From Longimicrobiales bacterium (lineage in GTDB: Bacteria; Gemmatimonadota; Gemmatimonadetes; Longimicrobiales; Gaopeijiaceae): a stretch of 64,000 nucleotides of DNA. The translations under genes were made by a program, and so were the position numbers. The stretch lies in the NCBI GenBank assembly GCA_958295645.1, contig OY282361.1, forward strand, positions 434,001 through 498,000. Reading direction: 5' to 3'. Of this stretch, positions 55,901-62,738 are shown in pieces (the first letter of the stretch is position 1; every line of letters begins with the position of its first letter). Under the pieces are notes generated by a model that saw only the letters and a list, made by a program, of their open reading frames with translations, was not told the origin of the DNA and did not search any database.

Positions 55901-55967
55901 CTGCCTGCGGCCCGCTTTGGGACAGGCGGGCGGCCGCATTGTCCCCGTTGCCGGAGATTGCAAGCAC

Positions 55968-57734
55968 GTGACCCCGGACGCGTGGGTCACGCTGGCCGTG
56001 ATCGTGGTGGCGGTCGCGGTGCTGGTGCGCGACTGGGTCTCGCCGCCGGCCACGTTCATTGCCGCGGTCGTGGTGTTGCTGGTAGCCGGCGTTGTGACGC
56101 CGGAGCAGGCGTTCAAAGGCTTCTCCAACCCGGCGCCGGTCACGGTTGCGGCCTTGTACGTGCTGGCGCGCGCGGTCGAGAGGAGCGGGGCGCTGCAGCC
56201 GCTTGTGCACGCCACGCTGGGCGGCGGCGGGAGCCTGCGCTGGTCGCTGGCCCGGCTCACCACGCCGGTGGCCGCGGCTTCGGCGTTTTTCAACAACACT
56301 CCGATCATCGCAATGCTGACGCCCCAGATCCGCGAGTGGGCGGATCGGCGCGGACACTCGGCTTCGCGTTATCTGATGCCGGTGTCCTTCGCGGCCATTC
56401 TGGGCGGCATGACGACCCTCATCGGCACCTCGACCAATCTTGTCGTGTCGGGGCTGTTGCAGGCGCAGGGGCAGGCTCCGTTCACGATGTTCGAGTTGAC
56501 GCCGATCGCCTTGCCGGTGGCGGCCATGGGGTTGCTCCTGACCATTGGACTGTCTCCCAAGTTGCTGCCGGATCGCCTGTCGCCGCGGCGGGAAGCGCGC
56601 ACGGGGGACCGCAACTTCACGGTGCGGATGCGGATCGTGGCCGACGGCCCGCTGGACGGCAAGACGGTCGCAGAGGGAGGCTTCACCGAGACGGGCGTTC
56701 CGTCGGTCATGGAGATCGAGCGAGGCGGAGAGTGGCTCTCCGAACATTCTCCAGCCACGGCGTTGCGCGGCGAAGACTTGGTGACGTTTGCTGGGCGGCG
56801 CATGGAGGACGTGCGGCAGCTGCACGAGCGGCCGGGTCTGGTGTCGGCCCAGGAGCCGCACTTTCCGAGCGAGTTCGGGAGCCCCGACCAGGAGTTCTTC
56901 GAGGCGGTGGTCGCGCAGGGCTCGCCGCTGGTTGGACGGACGCTGGCGGACACCCGGTTCTCGTCCTACTACCAGGCCGTCGTGCTGGCGATTCACCGGG
57001 CCGGAGAACTCGTTCGCGGCAAGTTGGCCCACACGCCCTTGAGGCCCGGGGACACGTTGCTCCTCATCGCCGACCAGGGCTTCGGCGACCGGTGGCGCGA
57101 CCGGGCCGACTTCGTGCTCGCAGCCCGAATGGACGCTCCGTCTCCCCGGACGAGCCGCAAGGCGGGGCTCGTGCTGGCCATCGCGGGGGCGATCGTCGTG
57201 GGGGCGGGCCTGGGCGTGTTGCCGATCCTGCACTTGTCGCTGATCGGCGCCCTGGCCGTCGTTGGCATCGGGGTGCTGCGGCCTGGCGAGGCGAAGGACG
57301 CCATCGACTTCGACGTGATCGTCGTGATCGGGGCGGCCTTCGGTCTGGCGGCGGCGGTCGAGAGCTCGGGGCTCGGGCACGCGGGAGCCAACTTGGTTGC
57401 GGAGGGCTTCGGCCGTTTTGGTCCCCAGGGCGCGCTGGCGGGCATCGTGCTGGCGACGGTGGCGCTGAGCTCGGTGATCACCAACAACGCCGCGGCCGCC
57501 TTGGTGCTGCCCATCGCTCTGTCCACCGCCGGGGACTTCGGCATCGATCCGCGCACGGCCGCCGTGGCCGTGGCGCTCGCGGCCTCGGCGTCATTCCTGA
57601 CCCCCGTCAGCTACCAGACCAACCTCATGGTCTACGGCCCTGGAGGCTACCACTTCGGGGACTACCTGCGCCTGGGGACGCCTCTTGTGATCGCGGTGCT
57701 GGTGGTGATCATTTCGGCCACGGTCTCGCTGTAG
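55968..57734 (+). CDS. SLC13/DASS-type permease with two TrkA-C domains
   Basis: 588 residues from a GTG at 55968, which gives the standard family start TPDAWVTLAVIVVAVAVLV; GGAG lies about 11 bases upstream. Two transmembrane halves flank a soluble middle with two RCK/TrkA-C modules (NFTVRMRIVADGPLDGKTVAE and FFEAVVAQGSPLVGRTLAD). SLC13 signatures occur in both halves: AFFNNTPIIAMLTPQ with GTSTNLVVSG, and SSVITNNAAAALVLPIA with TPVSYQTNLMVYGPGGY. Such proteins move dicarboxylates, sulfate or similar anions with Na+; the substrate cannot be told. Confidence 0.92.
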   Translation: MTPDAWVTLAVIVVAVAVLVRDWVSPPATFIAAVVVLLVAGVVTPEQAFKGFSNPAPVTVAALYVLARAVERSGALQPLVHATLGGGGSLRWSLARLTTPVAAASAFFNNTPIIAMLTPQIREWADRRGHSASRYLMPVSFAAILGGMTTLIGTSTNLVVSGLLQAQGQAPFTMFELTPIALPVAAMGLLLTIGLSPKLLPDRLSPRREARTGDRNFTVRMRIVADGPLDGKTVAEGGFTETGVPSVMEIERGGEWLSEHSPATALRGEDLVTFAGRRMEDVRQLHERPGLVSAQEPHFPSEFGSPDQEFFEAVVAQGSPLVGRTLADTRFSSYYQAVVLAIHRAGELVRGKLAHTPLRPGDTLLLIADQGFGDRWRDRADFVLAARMDAPSPRTSRKAGLVLAIAGAIVVGAGLGVLPILHLSLIGALAVVGIGVLRPGEAKDAIDFDVIVVIGAAFGLAAAVESSGLGHAGANLVAEGFGRFGPQGALAGIVLATVALSSVITNNAAAALVLPIALSTAGDFGIDPRTAAVAVALAASASFLTPVSYQTNLMVYGPGGYHFGDYLRLGTPLVIAVLVVIISATVSL

Positions 57735-57759: not shown

Positions 57760-57838
57760 GGCGCGGCGGTTGCCGGGATCGGTCGGCGGGCCTGCGTCGG
57801 CGCGGCGGCCCGCCGGGACCGCTCAGCGAGCCCGGGTC
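57760..57838. repeat. 39-40 bp repeat at the end of convergent genes
   Basis: Units beginning GGCGCGGCGG start at 57760 and 57799, with a partial third at 57839 (AGCGCGGCC). Both share GCCGGGAYCG and GGGCCTGCGTC-type blocks. The array fills the gap after the SLC13 gene and reaches over the stop of the selenoprotein gene. Confidence 0.55.
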
Positions 57839-58353
57839 AGCGCGGCCAGGACCGGAGCGACGGCGTTGCGGGCGAGTTCTCGGAGTTCCGCGGCGGTTCG
57901 GTTCTGGACGGGGTGCGCCACCCAGGCGATGGCGGGCTCGAAGCCCAGCGCCCGGGCTTGGTGCTGGGCGGCGTCGCGGAAGCGGTCGGTTGCGACCAGC
58001 ACGCCGGGGACGCCCCTGTCGTCCAACGCTTTGATGTCATGCAGACCGCATGATGTGCACGACCCTCAATCGGCGAGTCCCTCCACGACCACGTCGGCGT
58101 GCTCGGCGATGTCGCCGAGAATGGCCGGAGTCGCGGGCTTGGCGTTGGTGGGCTTGGCGAAGCGGCGCGTGCGAACGTCCTGGTCGTGGAGCGCGCGCTC
58201 CAGGTAGTCGAGGAACTCGCCGGCGCGGGATTTTCCGATGTCGAAGAGCGCGACCGTCTTGTCGTCCAGAGTAGCGGGAGCGGCAAGGCGGGCGCGGGTC
58301 GCGGGCGCCGCCTCGTGGGTCGGGTCGTGGAGCATGACGGGAACGTGGGTCAT
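57823..58353 (-). CDS. UGSC-family selenoprotein with in-frame TGA (Sec96)
   Basis: 176 residues if TGA at 58066-58068 (minus strand) is read as selenocysteine. The frame is open on both sides: before it, DIGKSRAGEFLDYLERALHD and HADVVVEGLAD; after it, GSCTSCGLHDIKALDDRG, VLVATDRFRDAAQHQA and WVAHPVQNRT, which together make one UGSC-family protein in which U-G-S-C (elsewhere C-G-S-C) is the redox motif. A hairpin with loop GGUCU follows the TGA (58037-58053). The ATG at 58353 overlaps the stop of its partner gene as ATGA. The family is probably redox-active; its reaction is not known. A conventional caller would split this gene or drop its C-terminal half. Confidence 0.9.
58037..58053 (-). 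promoter_or_regulatory. Bacterial SECIS element
   Basis: TCATGC-GGTCT-GCATGA forms a six-pair perfect stem with a five-base loop. Counting U of UGA as 1, the stem spans 16-32 and loop residues G23 and U24 fall exactly where E. coli fdhF has its SelB-contacting G23 and U24; bases 22-29 (GGUCUGCA) are identical to fdhF. Confidence 0.88.
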
Positions 58354-59954
58354 TCTTCGATCTCTCGTGTGACGGGGTGGGATTCCTTGTAGGCGCCTCC
58401 GCCGGGCCAGCCGGCGAGGACGGCTGAGTACATGCCGGCGTCGCCACCGGCGCGAACCAGCGACAGGCCCTCGGGATGGAACTTGGGCACGAGCGGCGGG
58501 TTGCGGCCATCCCCGCCGACGTCCGTGCGCCGTTGCGGCCCGTTGCGGCGAACCTCCGCGCCTGCTCGTCGCTGCGACGCGTGGTCGCGAGCCTTCTCGC
58601 CCGTTCGTTGCGGGCGCGGCATGCCTTCGGCCACGCCGCCCGCGCCCTGAGCGACTTTCTCGGCCGGACGCAACAGCGCCTCGTGGAGGGCGGCCACGAT
58701 TCGGCCCCGGCCCCAGCCCGCCTTCCGGTAGATGCCGTAGTGCTCGGGAGCGACGACCAGCAGCGCGGGCGCCCATTCGCACAACTTGGGGTGGCCGACG
58801 GCCTGAAGCGCCATGGCCAGGGAGCGCGTCAGCTCCTCGGCGGTTCGGGCCTTGCGGTCGGTCACGCCCTGCAGGCCGTCGCCCGCGAAGAGGGTGACCG
58901 CGCTCCTGCCGGGCGTCGCGCCGCGCGAGACCGACAACGGCTCCCATTCGGGATCCGTTTCGTCCTCCGCGAAGCAGAACGTGTACTTCCCCGGGCCGCC
59001 GAGCGCCGCCCGGTCGATCTCGCCGGGCCTTCCGCCCCCCACGTTGCGCACGATCAAGTTGAGCGCGCGCCCGATCGTGCCGTTGGCGCGGTTCCCCTGG
59101 CCGAGCGCGTTGATGCCCGCGTTCATGCCGATGCGCTTCGCCACGGGGCCGTTGACGACCACCACCGGGCTCGAGAAGCAGGTGCTGCACGTGACGCCGT
59201 GAAGCGTGAAGCCGGGGTCCAGCGCGGCCTCCAACGCGCCGATCACGACGGGCAGGTACTCGGGCCGGCAGCCGGCCAGCACGGCGTTGATCGCCGCCTT
59301 CTCGACCGTGCACGGAGCCAGAGCCGGCGGGATCCGCCCTATGACGTCGCCGGCGTCCCGTCGCGTCCCCGCGAGCATCCGCAACACGCGCTCCGGCGTC
59401 GGGGGGACGACGGGCAGGCCGTCCGTCCAGCCCCGGTCGTAGCAGACCTCAACGGGATCGGCGTAGGGAGCCGTCTCGATCCGGCGGGCGCGAATCCGCC
59501 TCTCGCCGAACCGGGCCTGCAACGCTTCGGGCACGCCGGGCTCCAGCGAACGCGATCCGCAGCCGGGGCGGTGCGCGGGAAGCGCGGCCCCCAGCGCACC
59601 CAGTCCCGTGAGAGCGCGCCAGTCCTCCTTGCTCCATCCCTCCGCGCGGCCGGTCTCGGCTCCGTCTTCCAAGCGGAGGAGCGTGGGCACCGTCTCGACG
59701 CCGTACCGGAACGAATGCTCGAGTTCCGTGTCGTCCACCGTGGCGAGCCCCGCGCCGAGAAACGCGCCGTCGTCCTGCCAATGGACGGCGAGGCTCCCGC
59801 CCTCCGCGGCGATGAACCGAAGCGCGGGGGCCACGAGATGGCAGGTCTCGCAGTCGTCCTTGACGAAGGCGAGAAAGCGGATGTGCGGGGCGGGCGTGGC
59901 GTCCTCCGTTTCCGTGGGCGCGCGAGCCGCTGGAAGGCGCGGCCGCGCGCCCAT
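58350..59954 (-). CDS. Thioredoxin-like protein with UGSC-associated Cys-rich domain
   Basis: 534 residues. Residues about 22-115 resemble a thioredoxin fold with redox motif C-E-T-C (C35, C38) and the cis-Pro segment YGVETVPTLLRLEDG. The large remainder begins CYDRGWTDGLPVVPPTPERV and contains CTVEKAAINAVLAGCRPEYLPVVIGALEA, HGVTCSTCFSSPVVVVNGP and GQGNRANGTIGRALNLIVRNVGGGRPGEID; several conserved cysteines (C-S-T-C) suggest a redox or thiol-transfer centre. I do not know a characterised homologue. It ends in ATGA overlap with the UGSC selenoprotein, which makes it a likely redox partner, and starts 15 bases after the DUF5916 gene. Confidence 0.85.
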   Translation of the reverse strand: MGARPRLPAARAPTETEDATPAPHIRFLAFVKDDCETCHLVAPALRFIAAEGGSLAVHWQDDGAFLGAGLATVDDTELEHSFRYGVETVPTLLRLEDGAETGRAEGWSKEDWRALTGLGALGAALPAHRPGCGSRSLEPGVPEALQARFGERRIRARRIETAPYADPVEVCYDRGWTDGLPVVPPTPERVLRMLAGTRRDAGDVIGRIPPALAPCTVEKAAINAVLAGCRPEYLPVVIGALEAALDPGFTLHGVTCSTCFSSPVVVVNGPVAKRIGMNAGINALGQGNRANGTIGRALNLIVRNVGGGRPGEIDRAALGGPGKYTFCFAEDETDPEWEPLSVSRGATPGRSAVTLFAGDGLQGVTDRKARTAEELTRSLAMALQAVGHPKLCEWAPALLVVAPEHYGIYRKAGWGRGRIVAALHEALLRPAEKVAQGAGGVAEGMPRPQRTGEKARDHASQRRAGAEVRRNGPQRRTDVGGDGRNPPLVPKFHPEGLSLVRAGGDAGMYSAVLAGWPGGGAYKESHPVTREIEE

Positions 59955-59959
59955 GGAAA

Positions 59960-59974
59960 GATAGCCCGGCTATC
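59960..59974. promoter_or_regulatory. 15-bp palindrome at DUF5916 stop
   Basis: GATAGCCCGGCTATC is a perfect 7-bp inverted repeat around one central base. It covers the stop codon of the DUF5916 gene just before the next start, so it could be an operator or chance. Confidence 0.25.
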
Positions 59975-62738
59975 CGATCCAGTAGCTCATCTTCACCATG
60001 AACACGTCTTCGCTGGGCTCCTCGAACAGCGTGCCCACGTCGCCCAGGGAGAAGTCCCCGGTCTGCGCGTAGTGGTCCCGTCCCTGCGACCATGCGACGA
60101 AGAGCGCCGAGCCGGGCTGGTACTCCCAGCGCAGCACCACGTTGGAGCGGAACTGCTTGACGTTGAAGTCGGGGTTTCGGAAGGACTCGGGCGAGCCGTC
60201 TCCGTCCACGTCGGCTTCGACGAGACCGTTGTCGGCGACCCTCGACTGCAGGAGGTCGTATCGGTCCTTGTAGGCTTGGGCGCGGGGATCGGAAATCCGC
60301 TTGAACTCGCCGTACTCGCCGGCGGAGACGAAGGGTTCCGCGTAGACCTGCAGCGACAGCGTGGGAGAGAACGTCCAGGAGGCGCGCGTGGTGGCGCCGG
60401 CCGTCACTTGGCGCAGCTCGCCGAACAGATAGTTCGGCGCGTCGCCGCCGAAGCGCCGGACCCACTGCAGATCCTCGGACCTGAGCCGCATGAAGGGGCC
60501 TGCCGACAACGTCATGCTGGACGAGGGGCGCCAATGCAGGCTGGCCTCCGTTCCCCAGGACCAGGAGCCGCTCTCCGGCTTTGCGCTCCAGTTTGCGCCG
60601 ATGTTGATTCGCAGGGGCTTGCGCGAGTCGGACCGGAGGCCGCCCCAGCCGTTCCAGGAGGCCTCGCGCACGAACATCGGACCGCCGCGAAGGGTGGTGT
60701 TGCTGAGTCCTTCGGTGTTGTGATGCACGCCGACGTAGCCGCCCCAGAAGTTGTTCAGCGTGAAGCTCCCGTTGACGTTGCCGCCGGTCGAGTAGCGCTC
60801 GCCCCCGAAGCTGTAGGAGGTCCATCCGTTGAAGTTCACGTTCCAGCGCTGGAACCGCTTGGTGGGCTTGTAGCGGTTGTATCCCACCCACACCCAGGGA
60901 CTCCAGAAGTCGGCCTCGCGCATGAATCCCGCGTCGTTGGTCTCGAAGCCGGGCGACCTCGCCATCACGCCGCTGGCGTAGCGGAAGAAGCCCCCCGAGA
61001 TCTTGGCGAAGGTCGCGGCGCCGGACCATCCGTTCAGCGAGGTGCGCTCGGGGTCGAAATCGGTGTGACCGGCGTCGGGCCGCTGGAAGTAGCGGGCCGG
61101 CGCTCTCTGGGTTCTGGCGATGGCTTGCTCGGAGCCTCGCACGGTGGTGCCGATGAGGTAGCCGGAGAGGAGGAAGCGATCGGCGCCGAAGCGGTGCCGG
61201 CCGTCCAGTCCCGCCGTGTAGGCGCCCTTGTGCAGCGCGAGCTCGTCGGCCGCGGCTCCGTTGCGCACCGTCCACGTCGAAATCACGCCGACTGCGCTCT
61301 TGCCGTCGCGAAAGTCCTTGCTCAGTCGCCCCACGCCGTAGTGGGCCAAGGGTTCCACCACTTGCGGTTCCAGTAGATTGGAGCCGTCGGCGCGATAGGC
61401 CTTCTCGCGGGTCGTGAGCGCGTGCAGAAGTCCCACGGACCAGCCCGTCTGCGTCTTCCCGGAGAGCTTCACGGCGCTGGCGATGCGGGTGCGGTCCGGG
61501 GAATCCGCGTAGAGCCTGGAGGAGACCCTTCCACGGGGCGCTCGTCCGATCCGTCTCGAATAGAACAGGTTCTCGCCGCCTCCGTCGTCGCCGGGCGAGA
61601 AGGAAAACGAGAAGATGTTCGCACCCTCCACGAAGAACGGCCGCCGCTCGGCGAAGAAGGACTCGAACGCCGTGAGATTGACTTGCGCGGGGTCGGCCTC
61701 GACCTGGCCGAAGTCCGGGTTGATCGTGAGATCGAGGGTGATGTCGGTCGTGAGCCCGTACTTGACGTCCCCGCCTATCGCGTACGAGAAGTCCCGCGGA
61801 TCGTGAAAGGGGTCCTCGGCGGCGCCGGACAGGCTCTCCAGGCGGACGAGCGAATAGGGCAGGACTTCCAGGCGCCTTGGCGGCGACAGGTCGTGCAGGC
61901 CCTCGAGGTCCCCGAAGCGCGAGACCATGGCGCCGTCTCCTCGCGACACGGGCGCCCAGAGGCTCTGTTCGAGGTGCCGGGCGACGACGCGGCCGAAGTT
62001 GATGCCCCACGTCTGCCGGTCGGCGCCGTTGAAGCGCAGCTGGGAATAAGGGATGCGGAACTCGGCCGTCCATCCCTCCTCGTCCATGGTCGTGGCCACG
62101 TCCCAGACGGCGTCCCACGAAGTGTCCTCGTTCGTGTCGTCGAAGAAGTAGGCGTCCACCTTGACGCCGGCCGGATTCACCGAAAACCGAAACGCGGTGC
62201 GGCGGTCGTGGTAGCTGTCGATCGCCACGTCCAGCCAGTCCGAGTGGGGACGCTCGTCGCGCCTTGCCAGGCGCGAGACGATGGAGTCGGGCGCTTCGTC
62301 GAAGGCGCGGATGCCGACGTAGAGAGCGGCGTCCCCGTAGAGCACGCGGGCCTCGGTTCTCTGCGAGGCCGGTTCCCCTTCGTTCGGCTCGAAGACCACG
62401 AAGTTCCGCGCGACCGTCGCCGAGGCCCAGTCCGCTTCGTCCAGGACTCCGTCGACGGCCGGAGTCTCGCCGCTCAAGCGCAACGCCTGGAGGCTGGGCA
62501 CGACCGCCGCCCCTCCCGCCGCCGCCGTGCTTCCGCTGCTTTCCGCTTCCTGCGCGGCGAGGCCCGCGGCCGTGCCCCTTCCGCCCGGCGTCCCTACCGT
62601 CAATGCCATCGCCGCGACGGCCGCGGCCGCCACGGTCCGAACACGCGCCAAGTACCCCCTGCTTCCCCCACCGATGCTGCTTCCCGCGCCACCGATGCTG
62701 CTTCTCCCGCCACCCATGCCGTTGCCCTCGCCACCCAT
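59970..62738 (-). CDS. DUF5916-type outer-membrane protein with CBM9-like N-terminal domain
   Basis: 922 residues. After a signal segment (RTVAAAAVAAMALTVGTPGG) comes a carbohydrate-binding module 9-like domain (LSGETPAVDGVLDEADWASA ... SDWLDVAIDSYHDRRTAFRFSVNPAGVKVDAYFF ... FRIPYSQLRF), then the DUF5916 region with long beta-strand alternation (AFESFFAERRPFFVEGANIF, FYSRRIGRAPRG) to a barrel-like end FMVKMSYWIG. The N-terminus is encoded by four 21-bp repeats (62668-62738) with repeated in-frame ATG codons, so the exact start is uncertain. First gene of the operon with the thioredoxin-like and selenoprotein genes. Confidence 0.87.
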   Translation of the reverse strand: MGGEGNGMGGGRSSIGGAGSSIGGGSRGYLARVRTVAAAAVAAMALTVGTPGGRGTAAGLAAQEAESSGSTAAAGGAAVVPSLQALRLSGETPAVDGVLDEADWASATVARNFVVFEPNEGEPASQRTEARVLYGDAALYVGIRAFDEAPDSIVSRLARRDERPHSDWLDVAIDSYHDRRTAFRFSVNPAGVKVDAYFFDDTNEDTSWDAVWDVATTMDEEGWTAEFRIPYSQLRFNGADRQTWGINFGRVVARHLEQSLWAPVSRGDGAMVSRFGDLEGLHDLSPPRRLEVLPYSLVRLESLSGAAEDPFHDPRDFSYAIGGDVKYGLTTDITLDLTINPDFGQVEADPAQVNLTAFESFFAERRPFFVEGANIFSFSFSPGDDGGGENLFYSRRIGRAPRGRVSSRLYADSPDRTRIASAVKLSGKTQTGWSVGLLHALTTREKAYRADGSNLLEPQVVEPLAHYGVGRLSKDFRDGKSAVGVISTWTVRNGAAADELALHKGAYTAGLDGRHRFGADRFLLSGYLIGTTVRGSEQAIARTQRAPARYFQRPDAGHTDFDPERTSLNGWSGAATFAKISGGFFRYASGVMARSPGFETNDAGFMREADFWSPWVWVGYNRYKPTKRFQRWNVNFNGWTSYSFGGERYSTGGNVNGSFTLNNFWGGYVGVHHNTEGLSNTTLRGGPMFVREASWNGWGGLRSDSRKPLRINIGANWSAKPESGSWSWGTEASLHWRPSSSMTLSAGPFMRLRSEDLQWVRRFGGDAPNYLFGELRQVTAGATTRASWTFSPTLSLQVYAEPFVSAGEYGEFKRISDPRAQAYKDRYDLLQSRVADNGLVEADVDGDGSPESFRNPDFNVKQFRSNVVLRWEYQPGSALFVAWSQGRDHYAQTGDFSLGDVGTLFEEPSEDVFMVKMSYWIG
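62668..62738 (-). repeat. 21-bp tandem repeat encoding the DUF5916 protein N-terminus
   Basis: Units at 62668, 62689, 62710 and 62731 (plus-strand reading CCACCSATGC...). They encode Gly/Ser-rich seven-residue repeats ahead of the signal peptide and repeat in-frame start codons. Confidence 0.8.

Follow-up and report, generated by a model that had tools for sequence, protein, structure and literature searches.

A UGSC-family selenoprotein gene and its overlapping thioredoxin-like partner gene in a Longimicrobiales bacterium

What is almost certainly a true selenoprotein gene of the UGSC family lies at positions 57823..58353 on the minus strand of a 64,000-nucleotide stretch of DNA (the window) from a Longimicrobiales bacterium (contig OY282361.1, positions 434,001 to 498,000). 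It encodes 176 amino acids, and comparison with homologous sequences supports the reading of the UGA at codon 96 as selenocysteine (Sec). The UGSC family was described in 2008 among the more abundant selenoprotein families of aquatic bacteria (PMC2398784) and is curated as PF24696 and NF041046; the gene is a further member and founds no new family. What is added here is a partner gene that overlaps the UGSC gene by ATGA, the linkage of the two across phyla and the fusion of the partner to UGSC in some relatives. The Sec codon, its SECIS hairpin, the family assignment and the partner linkage are established at the level of sequence. A testable idea of function for this abundant family comes from the partner gene, its fusions to UGSC and its thioredoxin-like domain.

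The frame begins with an ATG at 58353, ends with a terminal TGA (57825-57823) and is otherwise open except at codon 96, the in-frame TGA at 58066..58068 (minus strand). The first-pass annotation had held that this TGA interrupts one conserved protein, and the Pfam UGSC profile (PF24696) bears this out. Its match, over residues 8-173 and 2-171 of the 172 profile positions, takes in the protein before and after the TGA and scores 126 bits against a gathering score of 25 (E 2e-36). The narrower NCBI naming model, NF041046, gave 120 bits over nearly its full profile, 5 bits under the curated cut-off of 125, so the gene was assigned to PF24696 and not to NF041046. Because the score falls just under the naming cut-off, this copy could easily be annotated as ending at residue 95. 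Apart from this slightly low score, no essential difference from the known family (PMC2398784, PF24696, NF041046) was found; the whole length, the U-G-S-C and the place of Sec are the same.

With the TGA read as Sec, the motif is U-G-S-C-T-S-C, as had been proposed, and in the alignment with 21 relatives the residue at the TGA is Sec or Cys, giving U/C-G-S-C. The codons of Cys99 and Cys102 in this UxxCxxC lie at 58048..58059 (minus strand), and both residues are likely redox partners of Sec. Cys99 is invariant and Cys102 nearly invariant in an alignment of 22 relatives. A variant without the second Cys, U-G-S-C-I-A-W, occurs in one relative (L021, G235:C100).

UGSC was found in 49 of 395 genomes of the phylum, and every match has exactly one stop, a TGA. 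In the Alphaproteobacteria, the class of Elioraea, the TGA is held by all but six among the matches listed; two Elioraea loci (L062 and L063) have TGC, for Cys, at this position. Cys is the classical counterpart of Sec. The earlier statement that other members have Cys is correct for Elioraea but does not describe the family at large, since all matches in the phylum have Sec and ocean data gave 255 Sec against 21 Cys members (PMC2398784). Homologues do not end at the TGA, an outcome that the first-pass annotation had named as a possible refutation; they run on through it with a conserved C-terminal half, and substitutions 3' of the TGA follow the pattern expected of a coding sequence, being commonest at third positions. 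That the TGA is an ordinary stop in a UGSC gene undergoing decay, whether through nonsense mutation or through an error of sequencing, is therefore scarcely credible: the codon itself speaks for it and nothing further was found, while the same TGA recurs in relatives and the protein sequence encoded beyond it remains conserved. Five alphaproteobacterial genomes (G585, G593, G679, G757 and G764) carry five to eight UGSC paralogues each, nearly all with TGA.

The host genome (2.89 Mb, a single contig), most of whose closest named relatives are Gemmatimonadetes MAGs, was searched for the Sec machinery, a test set in advance, and all parts were found. The selA, selB and selD genes each score over their cut-offs, and a tRNA-Sec scores 79.5 bits (gathering score 47) and is identified by ARAGORN as SeC with anticodon tca. 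Decoding of the UGA as some other amino acid, through a code change or a suppressor, would also fit a frame that is open past the TGA. However, UGA is a normal stop here, because UGSC and its partner both end at TGA; with the full Sec machinery in the genome, and Cys in relatives that lack the TGA, such decoding deserves hardly any weight against insertion of Sec. The host genome encodes at least two selenoproteins, since its selD (L017 minus strand, G000:C1 about 2528068-2528988) also contains an in-frame TGA, which falls within the active-site loop (HGAGUACK).

Within the phylum, selA is present in 47 of the 49 genomes with UGSC versus 243 of the 346 without it (Fisher P = 4e-5, uncorrected for ancestry). 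The two UGSC genomes without a selA match are G377 (73% complete), where a tRNA-Sec is present, and G275 (92% complete), where no tRNA-Sec could be clearly recognised and which may have been affected by loss or a binning error. A selA over the cut-off is absent from both Elioraea genomes and present in two genomes with the Sec form. Weak matches to tRNA-Sec in Elioraea (about 52 bits) were set aside, as 5 of 14 control genomes also exceed that threshold.

The candidate SECIS hairpin occupies 58037..58053 (minus strand) and is identified by covariation, invariant G23 and U24 and bacterial SECIS geometry. With the U of UGA counted as 1, it covers positions 16-32 (UCAUGC-GGUCU-GCAUGA), separated from the UGA by 12 nt; its 6-bp stem is formed by positions 16-21 and 27-32, and the loop GGUCU lies at 58043-58047, with G23 at 58046 and U24 at 58045. 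This agrees with the placement, loop and G23/U24 given in the first-pass annotation. The bacterial SECIS model (PMC13188914) specifies a loop of 3-9 nt, an upper stem of 4-16 bp, a G among the first two nucleotides of the loop, a distance of 16-37 nt between UGA and loop, and a free energy of -7.5 kcal/mol or lower. In geometry the hairpin conforms, with its 5-nt loop, 6 bp and 18 nt to the loop; its energy is -7.0 kcal/mol in context and -8.9 with the pairs forced. Rfam gave no match at the hairpin, and the one hit it returned at E <= 10 lay in another place and was a chance match to a miRNA. Among synonymous recodings, about 28% give some hairpin under the loose model and 1.2% give the exact geometry with GU at positions 23-24. 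Because a hairpin arises so readily under loose criteria, a single one is weak evidence, and it is conservation across relatives that carries the claim.

Such conservation was observed among 22 distinct Sec-form sequences, in which 96% of pair cells are intact. At pair 18-30, 13 sequences have G-C and 9 have A-U, and none has a mismatch; the switch corresponds to TCG/TCA for Ser together with CAC/CAT for His, both synonymous. One sequence, L021, has G-C in place of C-G at pair 21-27 and so keeps the pairing. G23 and U24 are invariant in all 22, and the loop of a second clade is AGUUU. The Elioraea sequences with Cys have lost the hairpin, and their loop, UCGAC, has neither G23 nor U24. The energy minimum of the isolated, unconstrained strand is another, longer pairing (-14.8 kcal/mol), in which positions 6-13 pair with 26-33, and this fold could instead be the conserved RNA signal. 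It is quite improbable in that role: it is without covariation, its score is reached by 136 of 500 shuffles, and its pairs 6-33 and 9-30 are broken in 12/22 and 8/22 sequences, whereas the proposed hairpin covaries. The proposed hairpin becomes the energy minimum once the first 9 nt are unavailable.

The likeness of this hairpin to the SECIS of Escherichia coli fdhF, claimed in the first-pass annotation, extends to the loop and upper stem. Positions 22-29 (GGUCUGCA) are identical to fdhF 22-29, and the distance from UGA and the G23 and U24 are also the same; the fdhF sequence used here shows 100% identity to the E. coli gene over 47 nt. There is no counterpart of the bulged U17 of fdhF, which SelB contacts in E. 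coli (PMC8659212). Position 17 of the UGSC hairpin is a C, paired with G31 in all sequences, so that the 6-bp stem is fully paired; the lower stem is not conserved. Because the bulged U17 is absent, E. coli SelB may be a poor reader of this hairpin.

Directly upstream of UGSC is the partner gene (58350..59954, minus strand; 534 amino acids), which overlaps the UGSC start by ATGA; because of this overlap, the two are probably translationally coupled. The partner consists of a thioredoxin-like N-terminus (CETC at residues 35-38), with thioredoxin matches by both sequence and fold, and an unnamed core. Outside the thioredoxin-like domain, no Pfam or NCBIfam name applied. The predicted model has a mean pLDDT of 71 and is poor outside that domain, and its PDB matches are mostly thioredoxins.

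Where the Gemmatimonadota, Bryobacterales and Elioraea loci extend far enough, the gene immediately upstream of UGSC is a partner homologue; in 19 of 20 alphaproteobacterial loci a homologue is near UGSC, nearly always upstream. Six further alphaproteobacterial loci encode UGSC and the partner core as a single-frame fusion, five with TGA (L088-L092) and one with Cys (L096), and the domain order in these fusions is opposite to that of the two-gene form. A fusion of UGSC to a domain called Unknown_1 was mentioned in PMC2398784, and Unknown_1 may be the partner core domain. The thioredoxin-like domain is absent or undetected in some partners of relatives.

The predicted fold of UGSC (pLDDT 93) alternates beta and alpha elements and forms a Rossmann/flavodoxin-like sandwich of five strands, in which Sec comes after the third strand and before the helix that follows it. 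The PDB matches of the model are generic (Rossmann, flavodoxin and receiver folds, Z 9-11), and no solved structure of a UGSC relative was found by sequence. The model points away from a thioredoxin fold, although the true fold may be one that the match list lacks. This bears on the suggestion that UGSC acts alone as a thioredoxin-fold oxidoreductase, with the partner a mere neighbour. UGSC was judged likely to be thioredoxin-like in PMC2398784, and UxxC motifs are common in thioredoxin-fold proteins; the predicted sandwich and the retention of the partner beside UGSC across phyla, with fusion in some relatives, argue otherwise and make independent action unlikely.

A distant link to GrdB is suggested by a weak but repeated match and a common motif. 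The C-terminal part of GrdB was matched by profile in 20 of 22 UGSC members (best E 1.4e-5), and the UxxCxxC of GrdB-type selenoproteins (PMC6778437, PMC13188914) is common to UGSC. GrdB/F/H, the selenoprotein B of glycine, sarcosine and betaine reductases, differ in length (about 430 amino acids versus 176), and against their curated full-length model UGSC scored 17 bits, with a cut-off of 602. Beside UGSC no relative of grdA or grdE was recognised, and the partner is unrelated by the profiles tested.

SelB and Sec-tRNA almost certainly read the UGA at codon 96 as Sec by way of the SECIS hairpin 12 nt downstream, and the terminal UGA, which no such hairpin follows, ends translation. In the proposed mechanism of catalysis, U96 would be linked to C99 or C102 in a selenenyl-sulfide, which the partner would re-reduce with its thioredoxin-like domain, and the partner core domain would bind the substrate. 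We infer with about even confidence that UGSC and its partner form one two-part, thioredoxin-fed Sec reductase working in this way. A more specific proposal is tentative and rather doubtful: a single selenium-dependent reductase in which a small Sec subunit with a Rossmann-like fold, a distant relative of the Sec domain of GrdB, works together with a core that binds the substrate and has a fold not yet described, and with a thioredoxin-like electron donor of its own. If true, it would place GrdB-like Sec chemistry outside amino-acid-fermenting anaerobes.

The PrdB-like selenoproteins of Alphaproteobacteria have, as does UGSC, Sec in UxxCT after a strand. Comparison of their profile with that of UGSC gave no significant match (E 0.03, probability 1.7%). 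In one locus, L100 (minus strand, about 730-2483), the UGSC gene is immediately followed by a gene for such a PrdB-like selenoprotein (VUPFCTRAVG). In the window, UGSC converges with a gene for a CitMHS-family ion transporter with TrkA-C domains (55917-57734, plus strand), and the upstream gene on its own strand encodes a DUF5916 protein with a CBM9-like domain (59970-62738, minus strand).
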